Notes under the pieces: generated by a model
The model's database searches: none
Told to the model about the DNA's origin: nothing
What the model saw: the letters and a program-made list of their open reading frames with translations, nothing else
Made by a program: the position numbers and the translations under genes
In this document: piece by piece, positions 3,701 through 53,400 of the stretch
Layout of the letters: each line of letters starts with the position of its first letter
How positions within the stretch are numbered: position 1 is the first letter of the stretch
Assembly: GCF_000003815.2 (NCBI RefSeq)
Contig: NC_049984.1
Coordinates: 7,286,998 to 7,350,997, forward strand
Direction of reading: 5' to 3'
Length of the DNA stretch: 64,000 nt
Source: Branchiostoma floridae
Lineage: Eukaryota; Chordata; Leptocardii; Amphioxiformes; Branchiostomatidae

Positions 3701-5538
3701 AATAAAAGTATTACACAAAATGCAGCCACTATAACACACATAATTAGTCAATCTGTGGAATATTTTTTTTATTGTAGGTGCTTAGATAAAAGAAAATATC
3801 TCAGTACACAATTCTCAAACTTAACTTGTTACCCTATAATTTTGTATAGGGGCTGCTGGTGGTGGTGCAACCAGCAGAAATCGTATGCAGGAGGTGACCA
3901 GGCGAGGCCTGCACAGCGAACCCAAGCCTCGCAAGTACGCATCAACGTACGCACAGCGGCTACAGAGCCAACAGCCAGGCACTGGGAGGAGGGGTGAGTA
4001 CAATCTGTGTTGTGCTTAATGTAAAAAAACAGATCACACACGGATTTTATGGTACATATATAACGTCAGTTCTGTGAGAATATTTCAAGAAGAAAAGGGT
4101 CTGCTAGCTTAGTGTGAAAACTTTTTCTTTGTCCAAAAGAATTATATGATTATGATACAACACTTCAACTTCAACATTAAGCTACAGGATGGTACAGGCT
4201 TACAGGTACATTTGTACGTATACCTGTGGCTGCAATACTGCAGTCACATGTCACCTTGAGAAAGGTTGGGAGGACCTAGCAGAATGACGTACCAGGTTAC
4301 TTCAGTATTTGTTGTGTTTATCAGGTGGCAGAGTGAGCCCCCGACAGCCGGTGGGGAAGAGATTTGAAGGTCCCCGTCACAAACCCAAGACGTACTCACA
4401 ACAGCTCCAAGAGATTTCTGCTGCAGCTCCCAAGGGCAGACCCAGGCTGGCTTATAGTATGTCATACAATCATGTACACTGTCTTTACTCAGAGCAGAGC
4501 TACCATCTTGTCGCATTACTTCGATGAACATAGCTTCGATGAACGTAGCTAATGTAGAATTGAAATAAAAGTTGATGAAGATTAGACATCCAGGTAATAA
4601 GATGTCTCAAAAAGCAGTTACTCAAGCAACTGGATATGACTTGGGAAAAGGTCAGACGTTTCAACTAGCATCCACTAAAAGTGTCACTGACGAAAACTAA
4701 TGGATGCTAGTTGAAATGTCTGACCGTTTCCAAAATCATATCCAGTTGCTTGAGTAACTGCTTTTGGGCACATTTTGAGAATATCTTATGGGGTCATTAT
4801 GCAGAAATTGAAAGAACCTGTCATTGTCTTTTCTTCATTAGCTGGCACATCATCCAGAGGCTTCAAATCCCCGTCCATGCGGACTCAGACGCTCCGCCAT
4901 GCACCGTACCCGGACGTGTACGAGTCTGTACTGGAGGATATATCCGAGGCCAGCACGGCCAGCTTGCTCCGCAGTACGTCAGACGATGTCAGGAGAATTC
5001 TGGAGGAGGAGGACATCTTTGGGGTAGGAACTTAAAGGAAATGGTCTCACATAGATGTTCTCTTGTTTACAACATACTAGAGGTCTCATGTAGAAGTATC
5101 ATGAATCTTGTTTGAAAGAAACTAGAGCTCAGTTTCTGTCTTTTCAGAGCAAACAGAATCACATTAAAAAATGAGTTTGGAAAAGATTGATTTTACTTTA
5201 AAATTCCTGTGTTGACTTTTGCTATAATTGTTTGGCAAATATTTGATAAAGATTCATCAAACATTTTTCCCTCAAGAAAGGGCATCTTTTTGGATGCTAT
5301 TAGCAAATCTAACCTAGTACTTTTCCTTCCATAGGATGGAGGTGCAAGACCCAGGCAGAGAGACTACCCTGATTACGATGCTTCCAGTCTGTACGATGTT
5401 GGAGATGATCTGCTGGGAGATGACTACATCAATAGTGTGGACCCTGACCAACTGAGTCAGGCCTCGCAGAGCACAGGCAGCATCCTCAGCAACATCAACT
5501 GGGATGAGGTGGAGCAGCTCATTGCAACGGTGGAATGA
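727..5538 (+). CDS. unrecognised protein with repeated KTYxxxL motifs (3' part of gene)
   Basis: Eight exons join in frame with GT-AG borders: 727-782, 1332-1708, 2140-2313, 2803-2940, 3850-3993, 4325-4456, 4842-5023 and 5335-5538 (stop TGA). They give 468 residues; the start lies upstream and was not found. The first part is charged and helical (WKQIHQAEKDMEDRRK, then RENMSERVKQAYDLM), followed by a Pro/Lys/Arg-rich basic stretch. Four consecutive exons each carry one motif: KPKTYAEKL, VKTYAQRLQEL, ASTYAQRLQSQ and KPKTYSQQLQEI. All four exons are phase 1-1, which suggests exon duplication. The C-terminus is acidic and ends NINWDEVEQLIATVE. No catalytic domain, membrane segment or signal peptide is visible. 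I do not recognise the family. The basic repeats and helical N-terminus would suit a cytoskeletal or centrosomal scaffold, but that is a guess. Confidence 0.75.
4608..4766. mobile_element. near-perfect palindromic MITE in an intron
   Basis: The two halves are inverted copies of about 65 bp. The left arm begins AAAGCAGTTACTCAAGCAAC and the right arm ends with its complement. They are separated by a short loop near 4680-4695. The element lies in the intron between exons 4325-4456 and 4842-5023. A diverged relative sits at about 58569-58717 in a UBA2 intron. Confidence 0.65.
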
Positions 5539-6702
5539 TGTTAATCACGACTGTTAGAAAGTGGCACAATCCATATATCTGTTGATTTCATCTGTTGTTG
5601 TTGTTGGAATGGTCAATTCAGGTTAAAAGGGTTAAAGGTTTCTTGATGATGTAGAGCCATAATATTTAAAGAGGATGGTGTTGATTTTTTTGGGAAAGAG
5701 TCTCAAAGATGATCGAGCTTGTGGAGATTGGGATGATCCCCTGCTATGGATTTCTCTTTCAGCTCTAGCTATTGCTGTGCTGAAAGTGATATCTTCCAAT
5801 TAGGGGTGGGTACCGGTACAGAAAATTCAGGTCCAGGTCCGGTTCAGGTCCAGAGGATAAGGTCCAGGTTTGGACCTGAACCTGGACCTGATTCAGCACG
5901 TAAGAACTTGTGAATGGACGATACTCAAAACAATGGTCCATTTTGCAACAAAAACATCTGTTTTGTGGAGTATTTGACTCCCAGTGGCGTTTTAAAATCC
6001 TACAAGGCTACTACCTCTGTACGATTGGCTGTAAAACTTGGTAGAAATGACTATAGACTATACTCTACTTCGCTGTTGCTATTTCCTTCACCGGTAAGCC
6101 CCGAAACGTGTGGAAACGTGTGAATTATAATGTGTTCATTTTCCAATCGGTCCAACATCCGGTCCACCCAATTTTTTCAGGTCCGGTTTTTCTGGACCGG
6201 TCCAATGAGAAAAAACGGTTTTGTACCGGTACATCGTACCGGTACCCAGCCCTACTTCCAATACTTTCCAAATGTATCTAACACATCCGATATCACAGTT
6301 CATCAATGATTCTTTAGCCTTGTCCATGGTGCTAATCAAGAACTGTTGTGGTGTTTTCTGCAATAATCATTAAGTAGTGTGATTTTTGGCTTCAGTTTAT
6401 CAAAGTTGTTGCAACGGCCAACATCAGAGAATATGTCCATATGTGGAACATGACTTGACCAATTGTTGTAAATAGTAACTTCTATTTTATGTCGTATAAT
6501 GAAAGCACTTTCTGTGTCTTTTGCTTTGACTGTACATGTTTGATGAAAGTTCATTTGTAAATTGGTGATGTATTACAAAACAGTCCTAAGGAGTTATAAG
6601 TGCATTTAGCTGTTTTCTTCTATGATAGCATTCAAAAATGTTAGGCATTACTTGTACATTCCATAGAACTTATGCCCAACTTCTCTATGATGCCATAATA
6701 AA
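5539..6702 (+). other. 3' UTR and poly(A) signal of the KTY-repeat gene
   Basis: Sequence after the stop codon runs to AATAAA at 6697-6702, the best poly(A) signal downstream. A 454-bp hAT-like element (5801-6254) is inserted within it. The exact cleavage site cannot be seen. Confidence 0.4.
5801..6254. mobile_element. non-autonomous hAT-like transposon with 8-bp target duplication
   Basis: The ends are inverted repeats: TAGGGGTGGGTACCGGTAC at the left and GTACCGGTACCCAGCCCTA at the right (18 of 19 match). The flanks are a perfect 8-bp direct repeat, CTTCCAAT, at 5793-5800 and 6255-6262. A TAGGG-type terminus and 8-bp target duplication are hAT hallmarks. No transposase is encoded. The inside is rich in GGTCCAGGT-type inverted motifs. 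Confidence 0.8.
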
Positions 6703-7375
6703 CAATGCTGCAAACATATTCACTAAAAAGTATTTCGTCCTTTCTTGTGTCATATTATTGTTGCATCAGATACCAATACCACACTACCTATTGCAGATAT
6801 ACTAGGTACTTTGTCGTCTGTATGTTGTTCAGATAAATGTCGCGGCAACAGAACTGCGTACAAATGCAATTCCTATAGTTAAATTGCACCATAAATTTTC
6901 TCCAGTTAGATAATTGCTATGGCAATCGTTAATGCTTCTATTACCCTTCTTATGCATCGACCTTTGCTATTGTGAGTAATGGGAATCCCCATCGTCATAC
7001 GAACAACAACACCTAACCTAACCTACAGGACTTATTCAACTCAATAAACCACTGAAGCTAGCGAGTCTTCCATCATAACTCACCAAAATACTTATTGTCA
7101 GATCGACCATGTTGTCGTCCGTCTGAAATCATTCCCGTCTTTTGAGTAGTATTTCTGACTTACTATCCTTTTCATTTGAAGTTGTTCGACACAGTCGGCC
7201 CCTTTGGCATACTTGGTGACGTCCTGAGTCTTAAGTACATATGCTGGGTCGGTGCTTTCCGTTGTCAATTGAGTGTGGCGATTTTAACCGACCGGGTGTT
7301 CTATACATGTAGACTTCTTGCCTCCCTTGTGTGTTGCTGACAACGCTGTCAAAGCTGCCCTGAGTACAGCTAACC
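6703..7375. other. intergenic region and 5' flank of the TPR gene
   Basis: No coding exon is supported here. The 3' part is presumably promoter and 5' UTR of the TPR gene that starts at 7376. No clear TATA box was found. Confidence 0.4.
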
Positions 7376-10300
7376 ATGACTACCGTAGAAAAGGAAACGC
7401 CAGAAGTGTCCAACTCTTCCATTGAAAGTGGCAACTCTTCGAGTGACAGGTAGGACTGCTATGCTGTAGTCTTGTTGCTTTCCTCCCTTTACATAGTTCT
7501 TAGACTCTTTATATGCTTCAGTTGTGATTTGCCTGACATTGTACTTAATTGCTCATGTCCAAAGTTAGACAGTTTATATGTTTGTTGCACAGTTTCACGT
7601 TTCAACCCTTTGTTTTCAGAAACAACGTTGTAACATTAAACATACATGTAAAGTAACCTCACGGGCTTCTCACGAGACGTGTCATGTGACAGCCGATTAT
7701 TTGCCCCTACTTGCTCTTTGAACCCAAACATGTACCGACCTGTATATACAAACCGTAGATTTGGAAAACTGCCAAAACAGAAAGTTGATTGACAGGCCTA
7801 TTGTACTGATAAAATTACGGGATTGTTAAGGGGGGGTGCATTAGTACTACATGTTGACATTTGATCTTAGTTTCTGGATTGAACGTGCGTCTGAAATCCG
7901 TGCTTCAGACAGGTGACCTATAGTCAAATTGTTAGCCGCATGCTTTTTTTAACACAAATTGAAAACAAATGTTTATATCATGTGTAGTAACAATAGTAAT
8001 TCGGCCTTTGAAAGATGGGTAAAGACTAAAGAAAAGAGTAAACTCATCCTCTAAAATTACATCTAAATAAATTTGCCGCTTTTGTTGAATCCTTCAACAA
8101 ACTGTCAACGGTGAAGTTTTATATGACGAATGCTTGATAATCCCTACCTAAAAGATAAAAGTTTGTCGTATATATACATCATTTTATTTTTATCCACAGC
8201 TCCAGTGATGACGAACTGTCCTCACCACGATTTGAGCATCAGTCTAAGGTATACTTGGCATGAACAGATTTATAACTAATCGATTGCACTTTATTCAGTG
8301 TCTGTATCATACAACCGTTCAAATTCTGCAATAAGCCGCTTTTTTCCATTTCAGAGACGTGGAAGTAGCAGGGATGACTTGGCCAACGTTCTGAAGTCTG
8401 TCAATGCAATGACAGGTGAATTACAAATACTTATCTGACTTGTCATATTCACATTTTAAACATTTGCCGTAACGTTTTTAGCAAATAATATTGTTACTAA
8501 ATCTCACCTAATTATAATGTCTGTCTGAGTTTGTTTTTGTTTTTTCATGCTTCAAACAGGACCACCTACGCCTACGGTGATCCATGTCCAAGCGGAAAAC
8601 GCCCAAGTCGGGAACGACAACATCTTGTACAAAGACAAAAAGAGACACAAACCAGGTGTCATATTGTAAATTTGCTTATATGACTTTCAAAGATGTAGGT
8701 GGATGGCTGAGCGGCGTCCACAATGATCATCCAATGCATTGCCCACACAAATGATTCGTTTTGATTGATGCCATTATTATTCGGTTCTTCATGTTTCTAA
8801 TTTCTGTATGACCAACTTCTTAACATATATATAAACAGATCTATAATGTGGTTGATCATGATGATCTTTTATCTCTGTCTGTCACAGGAAGGTCCAGTGA
8901 GTCCGAACCTGGCTGCACGAAGAGTCGAGGGGACGAGTTGCCGATTTTGGTGTACACTGTGCTCAGTTTGATGTGTCACATGGCTCCAAATACCGCAATA
9001 CCAGTTTGGTTTTTCCTACATCTCATTGACGACTGTAAAGAATTGGTTGAGGAGAAAGGGTCCGGATACAATGAGATGATTACAAATGAGCTAGGTCTGT
9101 CAGAGTTTGATCCATTCGTCGCTAAAAACGGTGGGAAAACGTTCATGATTAACAAGCGACAATGCGATGATCTACAGAATTCCCTCTTCCACAGCATTGC
9201 CCCTCGGAAACGTGCATTGATTGAGCTGGGTAAAATCTACGCTAAAACTTTTCATGAGTGCGACAACAAAGAATGGGAGAAACAAAAATCTATGCTTCCT
9301 CATCTGCGCCTTTTCTGGTTTCGGCATGTTAAGAAATACAATCTTTCGGAAAACATGCCTTTTGGTTTCATGGTGGCTTCTATCCGAATGATGGGGAAAT
9401 ACATGGATGGTGATTATAGAAGTCGCGTAGAAAAACTCGCAGACGACTGTCTGAGCCTTAGCAAGAGCCCCACAGAAAAGGAAAAGGCGCATCGAGCTCT
9501 TGGTGAAATTCGAAAGAAGTTAGGCCAGTATGACGCAGCTGAGAAAGCCTTGAAAGCAGCTGTGCAGATTCGAAGGGAGTTGTCAGGCAGTGAGCAAGGT
9601 CTTAAAGAATCGTTAGAGTATCAAGGTCATATGCTTTGGTTAGCTAAAGTTGCCACAGAGCGCGGACAGTTCAATGAGTCTCTGAAAATCCTCGAAGGGT
9701 GTCTACAGTGCAGCGCGATGCACGATGAAAATGTGCAAAATCTTCTGGCATCTGTTGTCTTCGAACAAGGTCGGTGTTATGAGAAGTTGGGGAAATTTGA
9801 CGACGCGTTTCCGTGCTATGACAAGGCGCTGAAGGCGCATTCCAACAACCTTAAAGACAGAGGAGGGTACAGGTACCCACAGTACCTGCTCAAACGAGCC
9901 CATATGTTAGCCTTGATCTCGCACGGTACCAGTACCGTCTCGAGCGCTGAGGTCCTTCTTGAGGCAATAGCGAACTGTGACGAAGCCGATTGTATTCTTT
10001 CCCGACGTCACGGTAGAAAACACAACTACAGAGCACTGCACTTCTGTATCCGTGCCAGGCTGTACATCAAACAGCGCAAGTTTGGTTTGGCTCAGGAATT
10101 TGCCCAAGACGCGCTGCGCATCGTGGTCGAAACTTACGGAAAGAAGCACAACAAAGTCGGTGACGCGCTTCTCATATTGGGCGAGATCTGGACAAATAAA
10201 GAGAATAAAGACAGAGACAACGTTCGTGCATTTAAAGCGTATCATTTCGCCTTAGCGTGCTTCGAGGGTGACCACCCTTGCATCAATGACCTCCGAGACA

Positions 10301-10392
10301 GAATGAGTGAACTAAAAGATAAGTTGGGGGAAACTGAAGTTTCTTTGCTTGACGACGATGATTTTGAAAATTTGATTGGTCCCAGCAATTAG
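7376..10392 (+). CDS. TPR protein with an N-terminal RHIM-like motif
   Basis: Five exons join in frame with GT-AG borders: 7376-7449, 8200-8248, 8355-8415, 8560-8655 and 8888-10392. The product is 594 residues. I chose ATG 7376 because the short upstream exons keep phase into the long last exon. Residues 1-50 are Ser/Asp/Glu-rich and likely disordered. Residues 68-85 contain AQVGNDNIL, which fits the RHIM core (V/I-Q-V/I/L-G-x-x-N-x-L/M) except that the first position is Ala. A Lys-rich stretch follows. Residues about 95-290 are helical with no P-loop or Walker motif. Residues about 290-550 contain TPR-like helical pairs (for example LGQYDAAEKALKAAVQIRRE, and LGKFDDAFPCYDKALKAH). The tail is acidic. 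RHIMs are amyloid-forming adaptor motifs in RIPK1, RIPK3, TRIF and ZBP1. Coupled to TPRs this suggests an immune or cell-death adaptor, by inference only. No family name was recognised. Confidence 0.82.
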
Positions 10393-11106: not shown

Positions 11107-12186
11107 GCCTCTCTCTCAAAGCCTGTCACATGTCTGTTATATTATTTTTGATGATTAGTGAGTTACTCACTAACGATCCGTGACCATCTTACGGATTAGT
11201 TTAATGATTACCATAATGTAAAATGTGCTATGAAATCGAAAAGTCTGTTGTTGTTGTTGTTGTTGTTTTCCTTTAAAATGCAAAGATGACGTTTTTGTGC
11301 AACAGGGACCATCACTGAAGTAATTTCGCGGTAGGTTCCCCCCGAAAAGTGCCAAATATCCCTGCCGCAAAAAAAGTGCCAAAATTCCCTTGCTAACGTC
11401 AGACATCGTGTTGACTGTGTGATTTTGGCACATTTGATTTGTGAGGCACAGACATGGTCAACCCTGGTGTTCGACGTTCGAATATTAGATCGCAATTGCT
11501 AGATTTTATATCATTGTATAAAGAGGTAGCATTAAGGTTTCAAGTGAAATTATCGATCCAGTATAAGTTTCAATTCCGAACATTTTGTTCGCAGGTTCGA
11601 ACCCTCCTCATAGAACTCTGCTCACTTCTAGATCAGTTTCTACAACACGTATTCAGCTCTTATATAACGTTAATTCACCTTTATCCGCGGGGTAACTTGT
11701 ATCCCCGCCATTACTTTTAGAAAGGGGTATTTTCGGTGAGTGATTGTTTAATCAAGTCGACGGACAGTGGCTTTAAATTCTAATTCTTTCAAAATACTGC
11801 AGTTTGAAGCCACCGTCTGTCGACTTGATATCCCTAAATAACCCGTTACCCCGCGGATATAGGTGAATTAGCATTATATCTTACTAGTGGGAGATTATGT
11901 ATATGAGACGTGGTGAATATTATGGCAGTTCCGCTAGACGTCGCTTTTACACAGCACAGTGGAGGAGTCCACTGTCTCGCGCCGAAGATAACAATTCGTA
12001 ACCAAGGAATCCCTGAAAAATCTATCCATGTAGCATCAGTATCCATAATTTACATTTAATAGGCTGTAACATCAATATTTTATGACATTTTATCAAATGC
12101 AGGGATCGTTCTATTCATCTATCTGTTATAAAAGGTTACTTTATCATACCTATTTTAAAGTAGAATCGTCCAATTGACCATCTTTC
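11107..12186. other. intergenic DNA with a (GTT)n tract and a MITE
   Basis: This contains a trinucleotide GTT run at about 11246-11268 and the palindromic element at about 11659-11881. No coding exon is supported; short open frames here are incidental. Confidence 0.5.
11659..11881. mobile_element. palindromic MITE with nested inverted repeats
   Basis: The outer inverted repeat reads TAATTCACC then ATCCGCGGGGTAAC at the left and its complement at 11845-11870. The similarity extends several bases outward on both sides. A second inverted pair lies inside: a 27-bp arm around AAGTCGACGGACAGTGGC near 11753 and its complement ending near 11831. There is no coding capacity. Confidence 0.65.
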
Positions 12187-12312: not shown

Positions 12313-16599
<4,287 letters not shown>

Positions 16600-42600: not shown

Positions 42601-45600
42601 AGGTTGTCGGACAGCCTGTACGCTAGTAAGAGATCTTTTAACCGTCGTGAACTCGTGATGTTTCTGTTTTCTCAGTAATTTTTGCCGCGATGACGTAACA
42701 TGTGATGTGCCCTTCTTCCAGTTTACCAGCTCCTGTCATGCTGATCGGCGGGGCGCAGTTCGGGGCGGGTCGCAGGTCTGCACTAAACCGGTGTTCTCTC
42801 CACCACAGCTCCTGTCGGGCTGATCGGCGGGGCGCAGTTCGGCGCTAACCCGGCGTTCTCTCCTCCCCAGCTCCTGTCAGGCTGACTGGCGGGGAGCAGT
42901 TCGGCGCTAACCCGGCGTTCTCTCCTCCCCAGCTCCTGTCAGGCTGACTGGCGGGGAGCAGTTCGGCACTAACCCGGCGTTCTCTCCTCCCCAGCTCCTG
43001 TCAGGCTGACTGGCGGGGAGCAGTTCGGCACTAACCCGGCGTTCTCTCCTCCCCAGCTCCTGTCAGGCGGACTGGCGGGGCGCAGTTCGGCACTAACCCG
43101 GCGTTCTCTCCTCCCCAGCTCCTGTCAGGCTGATCGGCGGGGCGCAGTTCGTTACTAACCCGGCGTTCTCTCCTCCCCAGCTCCTGTCAGGCTGATCAGC
43201 GGGACGTAGTTTCGGAGTGGGTCGCAGTTTTGCACTAACCCGGTATTCTCTCCTCCCCAGCTCCTGTCAGGCTGATCAGCGGGGCGCAGTGGTCTGATTT
43301 CTTAGTACCGAGGACGTAACTTTTGTGGGGAAACTTTAGGTTTTGACTCTGTATGACTGAGGATCGTCGATCGATTTAATGTTTTAATTGGTTGGAATTC
43401 GCTGTCGGACAACGGCACCGTCGGATGACGTAATAAAGTAATTGTTGTATATTGTATTCGCTGTCGGACAGCAGCACCACCGGACGGTGTATTTGCTGTC
43501 GGACAGCGGCACCGTCGAACTGTTTGGTACAGCAATTGTTGTATATTGTATTGGCTGTCGGACAGCGGCACCGTCGGACGGTGTGGTACAGTAATTTGTG
43601 TATATTGTATTTGCTGTTGGACAGCGGCACCGTCGGACGGTTTGGTACAGTAATTGTTGCATATTGTATTTGCTGTCGGACAGCGGGCACCGTTGGACGG
43701 TGTGGTACAGTACATACATCGTGTATGTTGTATTTGCTGTTGGACAGCGGCACCGTCGGACGGTTTGGTACAGTAATTGTTGCATATTGTATTTGCTGTC
43801 GGACAGCGGGCACCGTTGGACGGTGTGGTATAGTACATACATCGTGTATGTTGTATTTGCTGTTGGACAGCGGCACCGTCGGACGGTTTGGTACAGTAAT
43901 TGTTGCATATTGTATTTGCTGTCAGACAGCGGGCACCGTTGAACGGTGTGGTACAGTACTTTGTTGTATATTGCATTTGCTGTCGGACAGCGTGGCCGCC
44001 GGACGGTGTGGTACAGTACTAGTATATGACTGTATGTTGTATTTGCTGTTGGACAGCGGCACCGTTGGACGGTGTGGTACAGTACATGGTTGTATATTGT
44101 ATTCGCTGTCGGACAGCAGCACTGTAGGACGGTGTGGTACAGTACATACATGGTTGTATGTTGTATTCGCTGTTGGACAGCGGACACCGTCGGACGGTGT
44201 AGTACAGTACATGGTTGTATGTTGTATTCGCTGTTGGACAGCGGACACCGTCGGACGGTGTAGTACAGTACATGGTTGTATGTTGTATTCGCTGTTGGAC
44301 AGCGGCACCGCCGGACGGTGTGGTACAGTACATACATGGTTGTATGTTGTATTCGCCGTTGGACAGCGGCACCGTTGGACGGTGTAGTACAAGTACATGG
44401 TTGTATGTTGTATTCGCTGTCGGACAGCGGCACCGTTGGACGGTGTGGTACAGTACTTTGTTGTATGTGGTATTTGCGGTTGGACAGCGGCACCGTTGGA
44501 GGGGGTGGTGCAGTATATGACTGTATGTTGTATTTGCTGTTGGACAGCGGCACCGTCGGACGGTGGGGTGCAGTACATGGTTGTATATTGTACTCGCTGT
44601 TGAACAACGGCACCGGTGGACGGTGTGGTGAGATTGTTGGACAATCGTGTAGAGAATTCGTTGTTGGACAGCGGGGTGCGTCAGACGGTATGTATAGTGG
44701 ATTTTCGCTGTAGGACAACGGGCGCCGGTGGACGGTAATCGTAACTTTGTTTGATTTGAGTCGGTGTTTCATTTCATATGACGACAGGTTGTTGGACAAC
44801 CTCAGATTTTGTTTGGTTTGTTGCATGGTTGGTGAACAAACCCATGGTAGGTAACAAGACCGTACGGTAGTACAGTGAAGACCTACCTTGTTGGACAGGT
44901 CAGAAGTAAAGGTCAAAGGAATGGAGGACACAATGGGAACAATGGAACTTCGTTTGTCACAATTAGATTGTGACCTTGGACGACATGCAATTTTCGATAA
45001 GGTCCGCAGCGTCTGCACGGTAATGTTGGATGGTGATTTTACCGTTGACTGAACCGGTGTTTGCGTTTCTTGTTATGCAAGTTTTTAATAAAGACAAAGA
45101 TCATGACGAGTTTCTCGTGTCACATTCCTTCCTACCATTGGATTTTCTGTGTTCCTGTTTATTGGCTACCTTTAGCTGGCCTAGTTCTCACTCGTGGACC
45201 GTGTTCAGCTCCCTTAAGCTGTTGCCACCCATACTGGCTTCGGCCTGGTGGTCCGGGAAGCGAGTGGGGCCTGTCCAGACTGAAATACATAGAACTGTGC
45301 GTAAAGGTCGACAGTTACAGGTTAGATACTGAGCAAGCATTGTGGTGATAGCTTTCTCTGCAGCTGGAATATTGTTCTTGTATACGCAGAGAAATCAATG
45401 TTTGATTTCCAACATGAGTTGAACTACTGTAAACCTGGGAGAGGTTGGTCTCAGGTAATCTCTAAGGGTTCTCTATCTAATCGGACTGGTCGTCGACCAT
45501 TCCACTGAGTTCGGATTGGACAGGTCCCACTCGAGCCGGACCTTAGGCGCCCAAGGAACTTAGCTGAGAACCAGGGATCAATCTGCATTCCTGAGGAACA

Positions 45601-47473: not shown

Positions 47474-50400
47474 ATGGCGGCTCTACCATCCACTTTGGTG
47501 TCTCCCACCAGAGATTTTGTGGAAAATAGTAAAGTTCTCGTAGTTGGAGCTGGCGGAATCGGATGTGAGCTCCTCAAGAACCTTGTCCTGACAAACTTCA
47601 AGTACATAGAAGTGGTAAGTCTTTCTTGGTCTCAAGTTATGATGGTCAGATGGCTTGTGTTTTTCTGTCCTGGCTTGTGGCACATGGTTGAATGTTTTGA
47701 CACATGGTGAAAAGGAAAGAAAAACACAGGATAATCTGAGCAAAGTGGTTCCATGATAACTTACTTTTTATTGACACTGTTGTGTTCTTTAACATCGTTT
47801 TGAATTGTAAAAGGAGGTAGGCGGGCAGAAGACAGGACAAAACAAAACTGCAATTGTTTTGCATTGACAATGAGTAGGCCACCACTAACCTCCAAGCAGA
47901 TCCTACGGCAGCATATTAAAGATACTGTAGAGTAGAGTAGAGTAGAGTAGAGTACTTTCGGTTGGGTAGGAGACGCGCTCCAATTTGAACCGCTCTTTCG
48001 TTTCAGCATACATCCGCGGGAAGATCGTTCCATGCATTGATGACCCTAACGCTGAAGAAATTGGACCGAGCTGACTTTTTGGCTAGGGGTTTCACAATCT
48101 TGAAGGAGTGTCCTCTCGTACGTCCATCAACATTGAATTTGAAAAGGCGGTTAGGGTCAATGCGGTCAAACCCCTTGACGATCTTAAATAGCTGTATCAT
48201 GTCGCCTCTCTTACGGCGGTGTTCAAGGGTGGGGAGCCTGAGGCGGCGCAGTCTATCCTCGTAGGTAAGTTCACCAAAACCAGGTATAAGTCGCGTCGCC
48301 TTATGTTGTACTCTATCGAGCAGTTGCTGGTCACCTTTGAAGTGAGGACCCCAAATGACGTTGCCATACTCTAGTATAGGGCGAACCATGGTCTTGTACA
48401 ATATGGGCACAGTTGTCTCATCGAGCCGTTGAAAACTCTTCCTGATTAGCCCCAGGGTTCGGAATGCCTTACCGGCGGTGATGGTACAATGCGCATGGAA
48501 TTTCAGTTTTTGGTCGACAATTACACCCAGATCCCGCTCCTCACTGGTTTCTTCCAAGGTGAGGCCTTGCATCTCGTATTGTTGGCATGGGTTACCATAC
48601 CCAATATGCATGCGTTTACATTTCGTGATGTTGAAGCTGAGCTGCCAGTCCTTAGACCAATCTGCCAATTTGTCGATGTCTGCTTGTAAGGTGGCAACCT
48701 CCTCTGGAGAACTCACTCGACGGAACACCTTGGTGTCGTCTGCAAAGAGGCGACAGGCACTTTCGATAGTGCTTGGCATGTCGTTAATGAAAATAACAAA
48801 GAGAATTGGTCCAAGCACAGATCCTTGGGGAATTCCACTTGAAACCATGGCCCATTCTGACAATTCACCATCAACGCAAACACGCTGTCTTCTGTCTGTT
48901 AAAAAGGCCTGAATCCAACCATGCAGTTTTCCGCTAATACCGTACTGGCTGAGTTTGTGCATCAAGCGTGCGTGGGGTACTCTATCAAAGGCCTTCTGAA
49001 AATCTAGGTAGATGGCATCCAGGGGTTCACTTGCCTCCACCGCTTGAGTCCAAAGGTCCATTGTGGTGATTAGCTGTGTTATGCACGATCTTCCGGGCAC
49101 AACGCCATGCTGCTGGTCACAGAAGAGTTCGTTCACCATCATGTGGTCTGCAAGAGCATCCCTAATAACAGACTCGAACAGTTTCACAATGACAGAAGTA
49201 AGACTAATAGGGCGGAAGTTCCCAGGTTCGTTCTTCGGTCCCTTCTTGTGTATGGCAGTTATGTGGGCAAGTCTCCATTCCTCTGCCAGCCGGCCTTCAT
49301 CCAGCGACTTTCGGAAGAGAATAGCAAGCGGTCTGGCTACGGCTTCCGCGACCTCTGCTAGTATCTTGGGATGCAGACCATCTGGACCGGGGGACTTATC
49401 CTTCTTGAGCTTTTTCAGTTTTCTCAGAATACCTTCAGGAGTAATTGTGATGTCCTCCAGGTTGGGTCCGTAGTACTTAGCTTCCATTCTGGGCATGCGG
49501 CCAGTTTCTTCTCTCGTAAACACACTGCAGAAGAACTGGTTCAAGGTGTCTGCCTTCTCCTTGCTGCTAGTCGTCATGGTACCATCCGCCATCTTCAGGT
49601 CTCCGATTACAGATTTGGTCTTGAGACGAGAGTTAACGTATTTCCAAAAAGACTTAGGGTTCCGTTTTACGTCTCGAACAAGGTTAGACTCAAACTCATA
49701 TCGGAGCTTCCTGGTGAGCTTTCTGAGGTCATTCCGCAGAGCAGCGTATCGGGCGTAATCCACCTCGTCTCCAGATACAGTGTAACGGTCCCGACTACTC
49801 CGCTTTTTCTTGCTGAGACTCTTGACTGCTGGGGTGGAGTACAAGTTCTTCTTACATGACTTCTTGCTTGTCAGAGGGATATGTGAAGTAATACTGCTTT
49901 GTAGAATGCTAATGAAATCACTGTACGCCTCGTCGAAGGACTTGTCCATGAGCCTGGTGTCCCAGTCAATACCAGATAAGTCTGCAGCCATATTGACGTA
50001 GTCACCGCGGTATAGGCTGAGTCTTGGCGTTGGATTGTCCTTTCTCTCAGAGTATAGTCTGGTTTCAAACTGCAGCCTTATATGGTCACTGTGTCCAATA
50101 CCAGGTAAGTACTCAATGTTTTCCACCATTCCATCTTCATTTGTCAGAACTAGACCGAGAATGTTCGGTAACTCACCGGGTCTGTATCTAGTGGGCTTGA
50201 AGACATGTTGGTACAGAAGGTTTTCATGCACACAACGAAGAAAAAGGTGGGATGGGTGAGCGTCATTTGCACATGAGGTTGCTTGTTCCCAGTCGATTTC
50301 AGGATAGTTGAAATCACCAGCAATTACGAGGTGCGTAGGACTAGTCCCCGTGACTACTTGTAGAAGTTGTGCCAAGTGTTCAGTTGACGACTTTGGGTCA

Positions 50401-53400
50401 GAAGACGGGCTTCTGTAGATGCCTCCTATTAATAGTTTATCGCGTCCTCTCAAACGTACTTGCACCCACAGGTGCTCCTGGAACTCAATGTCACTGTAGG
50501 AGACTTCGGTTGCATCAATGTAGTCTGCTGTGTAGATCACAATCCCTCGCTTTCCCAGTGTTCCAAGATTTCCCTGGTCAGGGTCAAAGTTCATGTGAGC
50601 TGTGAACCTGGGGATGGTGATTCTAGCTGCTCCAATAGGTAATCTCTGAGCCTTGGGGATCGCTTCCGTTACAATTATCACATGAGGCTTTTTTGTTGAT
50701 ATGGCTAACGTCAGGTCATCCCTTTTGTTTGGAAGTTGATCAATGTTTGTGTACATAATGTTCAGTTTACTCTCCTCCTTCCTGTTGCTACATGATAGAT
50801 GGTTGTGGTTGTCGAGTCAGGCCTGGGATTGGTCGTTGTTGCCGTCCCGCGGCTGTGATTCCCCAGTTGTCTGTGTGCACACTATTCGTCCGCGTCTGAT
50901 GACCAGGTTTGCTTCTCCTGCTTCTCGTCGAGATTTGAGCTCCTGTCGCAACTTTTTATCCACTTCCCTCTCTTTTGGCGTCATATCGGGCACAATATAC
51001 ACTCTACTCCACCGAGTGCTGTTTCTCAAGTCTTTTGCTCTCCTGAGAATCAAGGCCCTGCTCAAAGTGTCATCATTGTCTATTTTGATCAGGAGCGGTC
51101 TTGGCTTCTCAGGGTTCCTCCTTCCCAGTCTGTAGGCTGCTTGTACCTTGGGGACGAGGTTGAATTCTTCTTTAGTGATGTCTGTGAAGACCTTTGTATC
51201 ACTCAGCGTGCTGCCGGTCGAGTCCTCTGGAACATTGAAAACTACGAGGTTCTTTCGCCTCTTTTCACGCTCGATGTACTCGTCCACCAACTGGACCACT
51301 TCCCTGGGTTCCTGAGGATTGAGAGAGGATGACTGGGATGTAGTAGTGCCTGCAACAATCTTATTGATGGTGCCTGTGAAGCGGCTGAGGTTTCTGGCTA
51401 CATCTGCATAGGATTGCTTTTGCCCCTGACCCTGAGTATCATTGCTGGAACTGGTTGGCGGAAAGTTTTGCAGTTTGCTTTCGATGCAGGCAGCTATGGC
51501 TGTGGCTGTCTTTTGCGCGATTGATGCTATCGTCGGCTCGTCAAATCCGTTCTCTGTCTCTTCACTTGTGCTGTTACCTGCACCGGATCGTGCTCCTTCC
51601 ACTGCTAGTGGCTCGCAGATGGAGCAATACCAGTGTAGAGATCGGTGCTTGATGAGTGCATTAAGCATAGCCTTAGGCATCTTCATCCACGGTGCACACA
51701 TCCATTTTTGGCATCTTTCACATTCGATTTGTTCATTCTCACTGTGACGCTTGTCATGGCACTCGCCGCTAACGTTGCTTCCCAGTTCGTCATCATGGGC
51801 GGGGTGAGCAGCATTGTTTACCTTTCGGTGGGAGGAGCTAACATGGATCGGGTTTGCAGAACTTCCGATTGCATCCTTTGGCTCAGTGCAGGTCACAGGT
51901 TCCATTTTGTTAGAAGGAAAGTGCCTACGGTCTGCACACTTGCGACACAGTATTAAATCCCCTTGACAGCTCTGTGCTCCCATACCCCGACAGTCCTCAC
52001 ATCTTGGCATGATGAACAAGTCACAAGAGTCACCCTCCACAAAGACTGTTAAAAACTATAAATACACGACAAAAAGGTTCCTATAGGTGAGGAGCAAGTA
52101 CTTATCTTCGTGATATTGACCTTGCTAATAACAGATGGTACAATTTGATGGGGATTTTCAGCCGATTGAAGTCAGATGAAGCAGCAAGAAATCAGAGAGC
52201 AGCCATCTTACATCAGATTCATATGCAAAACTCCTTGGCCAGTTTGGTACTATCTTATGCCATTGTAGGATCTGCTTTGAGATTAGGTCACCACAAAAAC
52301 CACAGCTCTGTGGGCTTTCTGAGTAAACCTTTCAGAAGTTACCAATCGTTTTTTCACAGATTGACCTGGATACCATCGATGTCAGCAACCTGAACCGGCA
52401 GTTCCTCTTCCAGAAACAACACGTGGGCAAGTCCAAGGCACAGGTCAGTGGAGAACCAGTTTTGTTTGTGATCTGTATTGTGTTGTTCTTGGTAGCTTTT
52501 GAAGGAAAGTTATAGCTTGCAATACAGCATGCTAATGTGATGTGATGGCAAAAAAGGTGATGTTTTAGTCTTAAATTTAGATTGCTTTGGTTTCAGGCAT
52601 CTCAATGTCTCATAATATTGTTTGGGAAGTATAACTAAAGGATAAACTGGCCTTAAAAGTGTCTTTGTCTTTCAGGTGGCCAAGGAAAGTGCCCTAAGAT
52701 TCAACCCAGATTGCAACATCATAGCATATCATGACAGCATTACCAAGTATGTCATTTCCCTTTTATCTTTCTTGTTTGGTTTTGAATTAGATTATTTCTT
52801 ATCACTTTTGTGGTCATATTTGATAAATTGCAATGATTCACATTGACTCCCTGTCTTCCATTTTTTCAGTCCAGACTATGGAGTGAATTTCTTCAAAAAG
52901 TTTACCCTGGTATTGAATGCTCTTGATAACAGAGGTAAGACATCACATTCCCTTGTAAGGTCATATCTTGCATCATGTACTGTAGATTTGGGGGGCGGGG
53001 GGGGGGGGGGGGGGTATTGTGGTAAAATACATTATACATTGCAAACTGACCACACCACACTACATGTTTGTCTTCCACTATGTACTGTTAGTTTCACAGA
53101 AAACTCAAAGATACTGCAACCTTTTGATTTTCACTTTGCTGGGGAATTTAAGGGCTCTTAATATATATATTAGGAAAATCAGTGTAAAGAAGAGGAATGT
53201 TCATATCAACTTGTTAAAAGTTCATAAAGGTGTAAGGAGTAGATTCAGCTTCTGTTATTGTGAAGATGCTTCTGTCAGACAAAGGAGAGTGCAGTAACAC
53301 TTCATATATTTTTTGTCCAGCTGCACGTAACCATGTGAACCGTATGTGCCTGGCTGCTGACGTCCCTTTGGTGGAGAGTGGCACAGCGGGTTACCTGGGA

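Follow-up and report, generated by a model that had tools for sequence, protein, structure and literature searches.

A possible RHIM-like adaptor with a TPR body in the lancelet Branchiostoma floridae

In the sources cited here, in the parts that bear on the matter, the known carriers of RHIMs are kinases, a TIR adaptor, ZBP1, viral proteins, and immune proteins of flies and lancelets. A gene in a 64,000-nucleotide stretch of the Branchiostoma floridae genome (the window) encodes a short RHIM-like sequence ahead of a run of TPRs. This raises the question of whether a RHIM-like motif has been joined to a helical-repeat scaffold, and what such a protein might do. As far as titles and the beginnings of abstracts go, a literature search found no animal protein with a RHIM-like motif and TPRs but without an NTPase.

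The gene and its RHIM-like exon

The gene lies on the forward strand and has five exons (Table 1). All introns are GT-AG, and the phases close to give a single stop-free frame of 594 amino acids. Upstream of the ATG in exon 1 there is an in-frame TGA at 7361, with no ATG between the two. Residues 1–61 are rich in Ser, Asp and Glu (27 of 61). Exon 4 translates as GPPTPTVIHVQAENAQVGNDNILYKDKKRHKPG, its first G being split with exon 3 and its last with exon 5, and the motif-bearing sequence that it encodes is TVIHVQAENAQVGNDNIL. On the rough scale of this analysis its splice sites score 0.1 for the donor, which is weak, and 3.3 for the acceptor. Since its 96 nt are a multiple of three (phase 1-1), the exon could be skipped in frame.

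Table 1. Features of the RHIM-like/TPR gene, in window coordinates
Feature	Position	Strand	Basis
Exon 1	7376..7449	+	has ATG, start of amino acids 1-25; GT donor, phases close
Exon 2	8200..8248	+	AG/GT borders; phase 2 in
Exon 3	8355..8415	+	AG/GT borders; phase 0 in, 1 out
Exon 4, RHIM-like motif exon	8560..8655	+	AG/GT borders; phase 1-1, 96 nt, symmetric
RHIM-like core AQVGNDNIL	8601..8627	+	fits [IV]Q[ILV]GxxNx[MLI] save first place
Exon 5, winged-helix-like part and TPRs	8888..10392	+	stop codon closes exon
Probable winged helix, residues 110-193	8935..9186	+	predicted H-H-H-hairpin-H order, low confidence
MLPH junction	9292..9303	+	LPH common to paralogues A and B and the NB-ARC-TPR gene
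TPR superhelix, residues 270-573	9415..10326	+	TPR_12 E 1.8e-15; predicted model, pLDDT mostly 70-96
Possible poly(A) signal AATAAA	11101..11106	+	sequence

The preliminary description had placed AQVGNDNIL in exon 4 (8560-8655) and called it an imperfect RHIM core. It is indeed present there, in the closed GT-AG model, and Ala at the first place is its sole mismatch to the published pattern [IV]Q[ILV]GxxNx[MLI] (PMC9440496). Its remaining residues, QVGNDNIL, satisfy the extended pattern Q[ILV]GxxNx[MLI]. RHIM cores are described as forming cross-beta assemblies, and RIPK1, RIPK3, TRIF and ZBP1 cannot interact or signal without the tetrad, defined as (V/I)-Q-(V/I/L/C)-G (PMC9444067). A-Q-V-G in exon 4 agrees at three of the four places and falls outside this definition. 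Single first-place changes (LQIG, CQIG and TQIG) are reported from vertebrate RIPK3. ZBP1-dependent death was retained when these were placed in human RIPK3, as it was for all tested tetrad variants, and TQIG lost NF-kB activation; AQVG is not among the variants named in that account (PMC12119088). With three places of the tetrad in agreement and natural first-place variants on record, we use the term RHIM-like. Since such changes are tolerated in RIPK3, the Ala core may, by analogy, be a functional yet tuned motif.

On the 5′ side the gene is neighboured by one that ends near 5540, as read by eye. The 3′ neighbour, from about 12.3 kb, we take by eye to be an adenosylhomocysteinase-like gene. 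One of its exons holds an in-frame TAG at 12926-12928, close to a run of N at 12574-12673; a pseudogene, an assembly fault or a misread exon are possible causes. Two inverted repeats, perhaps small non-autonomous transposons, lie at 4599-4776 (arms of 79 nt, 89% complementary, with a 20-nt spacer) and 11662-11879 (arms of 35 nt, 91%, with a 148-nt spacer and another pair nested inside). Farther along, tandem arrays occupy 42764-43195 (62-nt unit, 7.0 copies, 94% matches) and 43488-44629 (60-nt unit, also 123 and 186, 18.7 copies, 83%), and the block at 42-44 kb has a GC content of 0.525 and an AT skew of -0.24. The corresponding values for 50001-52000 are 0.487 and -0.235; a tandem array search at the default score finds none there.

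Exon 4 compared with RHIMs and with its paralogues

A search with a RHIM profile had been proposed as a check, and the Pfam RHIM model (PF12721) gave no match at E ≤ 10, either to the whole protein or to a 43-amino-acid piece. Exon 4 is also absent from the seven PF12721 matches found across the genome (513 Mb, 431 contigs). The canonical core [V/I/M]Q[V/I/L/M]GNxN, a pattern that does not include the Ala core of exon 4, occurs 69 times genome-wide compared to 74 in the reversed control, which is chance level. The nine letters alone are therefore no proof of a RHIM.

The same genome holds RHIMs that can serve for comparison. Three loci, on C135 (near 205710), C148 (near 162822-162998) and C11 (near 2599959-2600168), each have an exon that holds a pair of RHIM copies, with the canonical V at the first place. 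Of the seven places found with PF12721, two reach the cut-off, namely one copy at C135 and one at C148; the other C148 copy and the pair at C11 stay below it. The second C135 copy was recognised by eye, so that two of the six copies used here pass. At the protein level the C135 exon scores 25.4 bits and the C148 exon 17.4, where the cut-off is 20. The frames after the double-RHIM exons give weak TRADD-like_N matches (19.1, 13.0 and 18.0 bits for C135, C148 and C11; cut-off 23.7), and these loci may possibly encode double-RHIM TRADD-like proteins. TPR-like frames were seen by eye farther along the C11 region. RIPK1 homologues have been reported in Branchiostoma (PMC12119088).

Against an HMM built from the six copies, exon 4 is the top of 4461 six-frame segments from the window and the regions of two paralogues (12.0 bits, E 0.031), the top score among 20 shuffled sets being 11.9. 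With a profile of eight RHIMs (the six copies plus RIPK1 and RIPK3; 222 kb, 7317 segments), it ranks eighth, with all six training copies and a single fragment ahead of it, and its 10.5 bits (i-E 0.15) lie below the top of 20 shuffled sets (13.8). In ungapped comparisons, for which the peptide ends were hand-picked, none of 2000 shuffles reached the score of exon 4 against C148a (27 residues) or C11b (16 residues). The corresponding counts were 4 for C135b, 13 for C135a, 16 for C11a and 106 for C148b; for the RHIMs of RIPK3 and RIPK1 they were 9 and 28. A genome search with the exon-4 peptide returns only itself. The support for RHIM-likeness is comparative; profile E-values of 0.03 to 0.15 are by themselves indecisive.

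The TPR exon is clearly paralogous to two others, A (C13:15954010-15955446, 31% identical) and B (C13:5078801-5080123, 22%). Upstream of the TPR exon of B, a stricter first exon scan gave zero candidates; with looser cut-offs the 4 kb scanned held a single phase 1-1 candidate, TDEGASGATTVVKKTYITYNVNISNSSLQNAQIGSKNSMCIYKLPSGDGLDE, and at the cut-offs used no additional exon lies between the two. This candidate carries QNAQIGSKNSM and had been picked up earlier by a motif scan. Its best ungapped match with window exon 4 is the core itself (ENAQVGNDN/QNAQIGSKN), a score reached by 35 of 5000 shuffles. Genome-wide, NAQ[V/I/M]GxxN occurs nine times compared to three in the control, and these two exons account for two of the nine. 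Taken alone, the B exon fits RHIM profiles poorly, at rank 10 with the six-copy HMM and rank 34 with the eight-RHIM profile, and its scores against the eight RHIMs are equalled by 20 to 666 of 2000 shuffles. In A, the preceding exon by best call is VVVNLFGNQNAVTTKC, in which Gln seems to have been lost; G, N and the hydrophobic residues are retained. This exon does not match the eight RHIMs (181 to 1841 of 2000 shuffles do as well), and it has no significant match to the window and B exons. QxGxxN is thus retained in two of the three family members, window and B, both with Ala as the first core residue.

The RHIM-TPR interpretation first offered for this gene stands in part. The core does sit within N-terminal sequence rich in Ser/Asp/Glu, with the helical and TPR parts following it, and Q[VI]GxxNx[LM] is kept in B; the Pfam RHIM model, however, is silent, and A, by its best exon call, seems to have lost the Gln.

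The TPR body and its probable kinship with NB-ARC-TPR receptors

Searched with Pfam at E ≤ 10, the 594-amino-acid protein matches 20 families, nearly all of them TPR or other helical-repeat models. There is no kinase, TIR, NTPase (NB-ARC/NACHT) or RHIM family among them, in agreement with the initial characterization of a TPR protein devoid of kinase, TIR and NTPase domains. In the absence of NB-ARC/NACHT in Pfam the protein is not an NLR/STAND receptor, though it is possibly derived from one. The helical region said to precede the TPRs is also present and can be refined: on the predicted model it is probably a winged helix. This piece has no Pfam match; it gives weak fold matches to SAMD9, CED-4 and NRG1, two of 15 sequence pairs stand at 10 of 1000 shuffles, and its hhalign alignment is confined to the LPH end.

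Over 294 amino acids the body is colinear with a gene at C11:19184887, one of the amphioxus CED-4/Apaf-1 relatives, with which it shares the LPH junction, YR[YF]P and the TPRs. In that gene, frames with DUF7779 and TPRs are preceded by frames read by eye as a death domain and a P-loop NTPase. The window TPR body scores 31.2 bits against this NB-ARC-TPR gene and 30.4 bits against a generic TPR gene, and paralogue A scores better with the generic one. From these comparisons the body is likely, on partial support of moderate strength, to be by descent the C-terminal half of an NB-ARC-TPR (NLR/Apaf-1-like) receptor with the NTPase missing, rather than an arbitrary TPR scaffold. The region C11:19183500-19203300 (reversed) holds a gene read, partly by eye, in the domain order death domain, NB-ARC, DUF7779 and TPR, and beside this gene LLPASCEMIEICQFSSSG frames are repeated every 0.87 kb.

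Several known systems resemble the window protein in part. Exon 4 shares with RIPK1, RIPK3, TRIF and ZBP1 a short motif with a Q-V-G-x-x-N-x-L core; it differs in having Ala for Val/Ile and in standing N-terminally on a TPR body, and no kinase, TIR or nucleic-acid-binding domain was detected in the protein. Fungal PNT1 is described as a PP-NB-ARC-TPR protein whose PP motif is related to the RHIM (PMC7889193, PMC7885112, PMC12881547). By its described plan it is alike in having a RHIM-related motif at the N-terminus and TPRs at the C-terminus (PMC7889193, PMC7885112), but NB-ARC lies in its middle and the window protein has none. From amphioxus, CED-4/Apaf-1 relatives carrying an N-terminal death domain or TIR have been reported, and in some members of the expanded animal set TPRs take the place of WD40 (PMC2246300). 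Nothing in the window gene corresponds to the death-domain-like and NTPase frames read by eye at C11:19184887; the RHIM-like exon occupies that place instead. The double-RHIM genes, with two RHIMs per exon, canonical V and another downstream domain, are unlike it; C148a and C11b are the best RHIM matches of exon 4, and these proteins are possible partners.

A proposed role and its alternatives

We consider it somewhat more probable than otherwise that the product is an adaptor which lacks an NTPase and goes back to the NB-ARC-TPR receptors of this genome, and in which a RHIM-like amyloid motif in the place of the death domain recruits RHIM proteins. The TPR superhelix and the probable winged helix would recognise a ligand or partner, and the motif in the presumably flexible N-terminal part would seed or enter a cross-beta assembly with the RHIM proteins of the cell, leading to their recruitment. 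Since there is no nucleotide switch, the trigger would be clustering on a TPR partner, which raises the local concentration of the motif, or concentration itself, and assembly could be tuned by skipping of exon 4. Amyloid formation, the partners and an immune or cell-death role are what we infer for the window protein.

The main rival to this adaptor is a decoy or brake, which we regard as rather unlikely. The RHIM-like motif, with its weaker Ala core, would cap or titrate RHIM assemblies, or the NLR-like body would bind NB-ARC-TPR receptors, and signalling would be dampened. Such a role would suit the lack of any effector or NTPase domain detected by Pfam, the Ala shared by the window and B exons, and the loss of NF-kB activation with TQIG in human RIPK3, whereas the persistence of ZBP1-dependent death in all tested tetrad variants argues against it (PMC12119088). 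Nothing in the present results separates decoy from adaptor. It is less probable still that exon 4, though real and somewhat constrained, encodes a short docking peptide peculiar to this family rather than a RHIM, with a core that converged on QVGxxN. The silence of Pfam RHIM, the low standing of the B exon against RHIM profiles, the upstream strand of B, which is off by two residues compared with RHIMs, and the divergence of the A exon all accord with this explanation. It is difficult to reconcile with the ungapped matches of exon 4 to two RHIM copies over 16 and 27 residues, reached by none of 2000 shuffles.

Those same matches, to C148a and C11b, together with the recurrence of the motif in a phase-matched exon of B, also argue against a chance resemblance of nine residues within the linker of an ordinary TPR protein. 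This we hold to be the least probable explanation, although the canonical core occurs at chance level genome-wide (69 vs. 74), the profile E-values of 0.03 to 0.15 are not decisive alone, and Q is missing in A.

To return to the adaptor, at least two proteins of the family, as judged from sequence, join a RHIM-like motif directly to a helical-repeat scaffold without a recognisable enzyme domain, and so may be adaptors of a new type in immunity or cell death. A RHIM-like motif with TPRs and no NTPase would be a further arrangement beside the known NLR-type plans. It is conceivable, but doubtful at present, that the family descends from a RHIM-NB-ARC-TPR receptor with the plan of fungal PNT1 and has lost the NTPase. 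Chordates would then have, or have had, amyloid-signalling NLRs, and amyloid templating between NLR-type sensors and RHIM effectors, of the kind known from fungi and bacteria, would occur in animals as well. If the adaptor reading is true, a RHIM-like motif on an NTPase-less NLR-type body would link necrosome-type signalling in animals to the amyloid fold passed on by fungal and bacterial receptors, and lancelets would gain a testable path that starts at a TPR sensor and leads to proteins like RIPK1 or TRADD.
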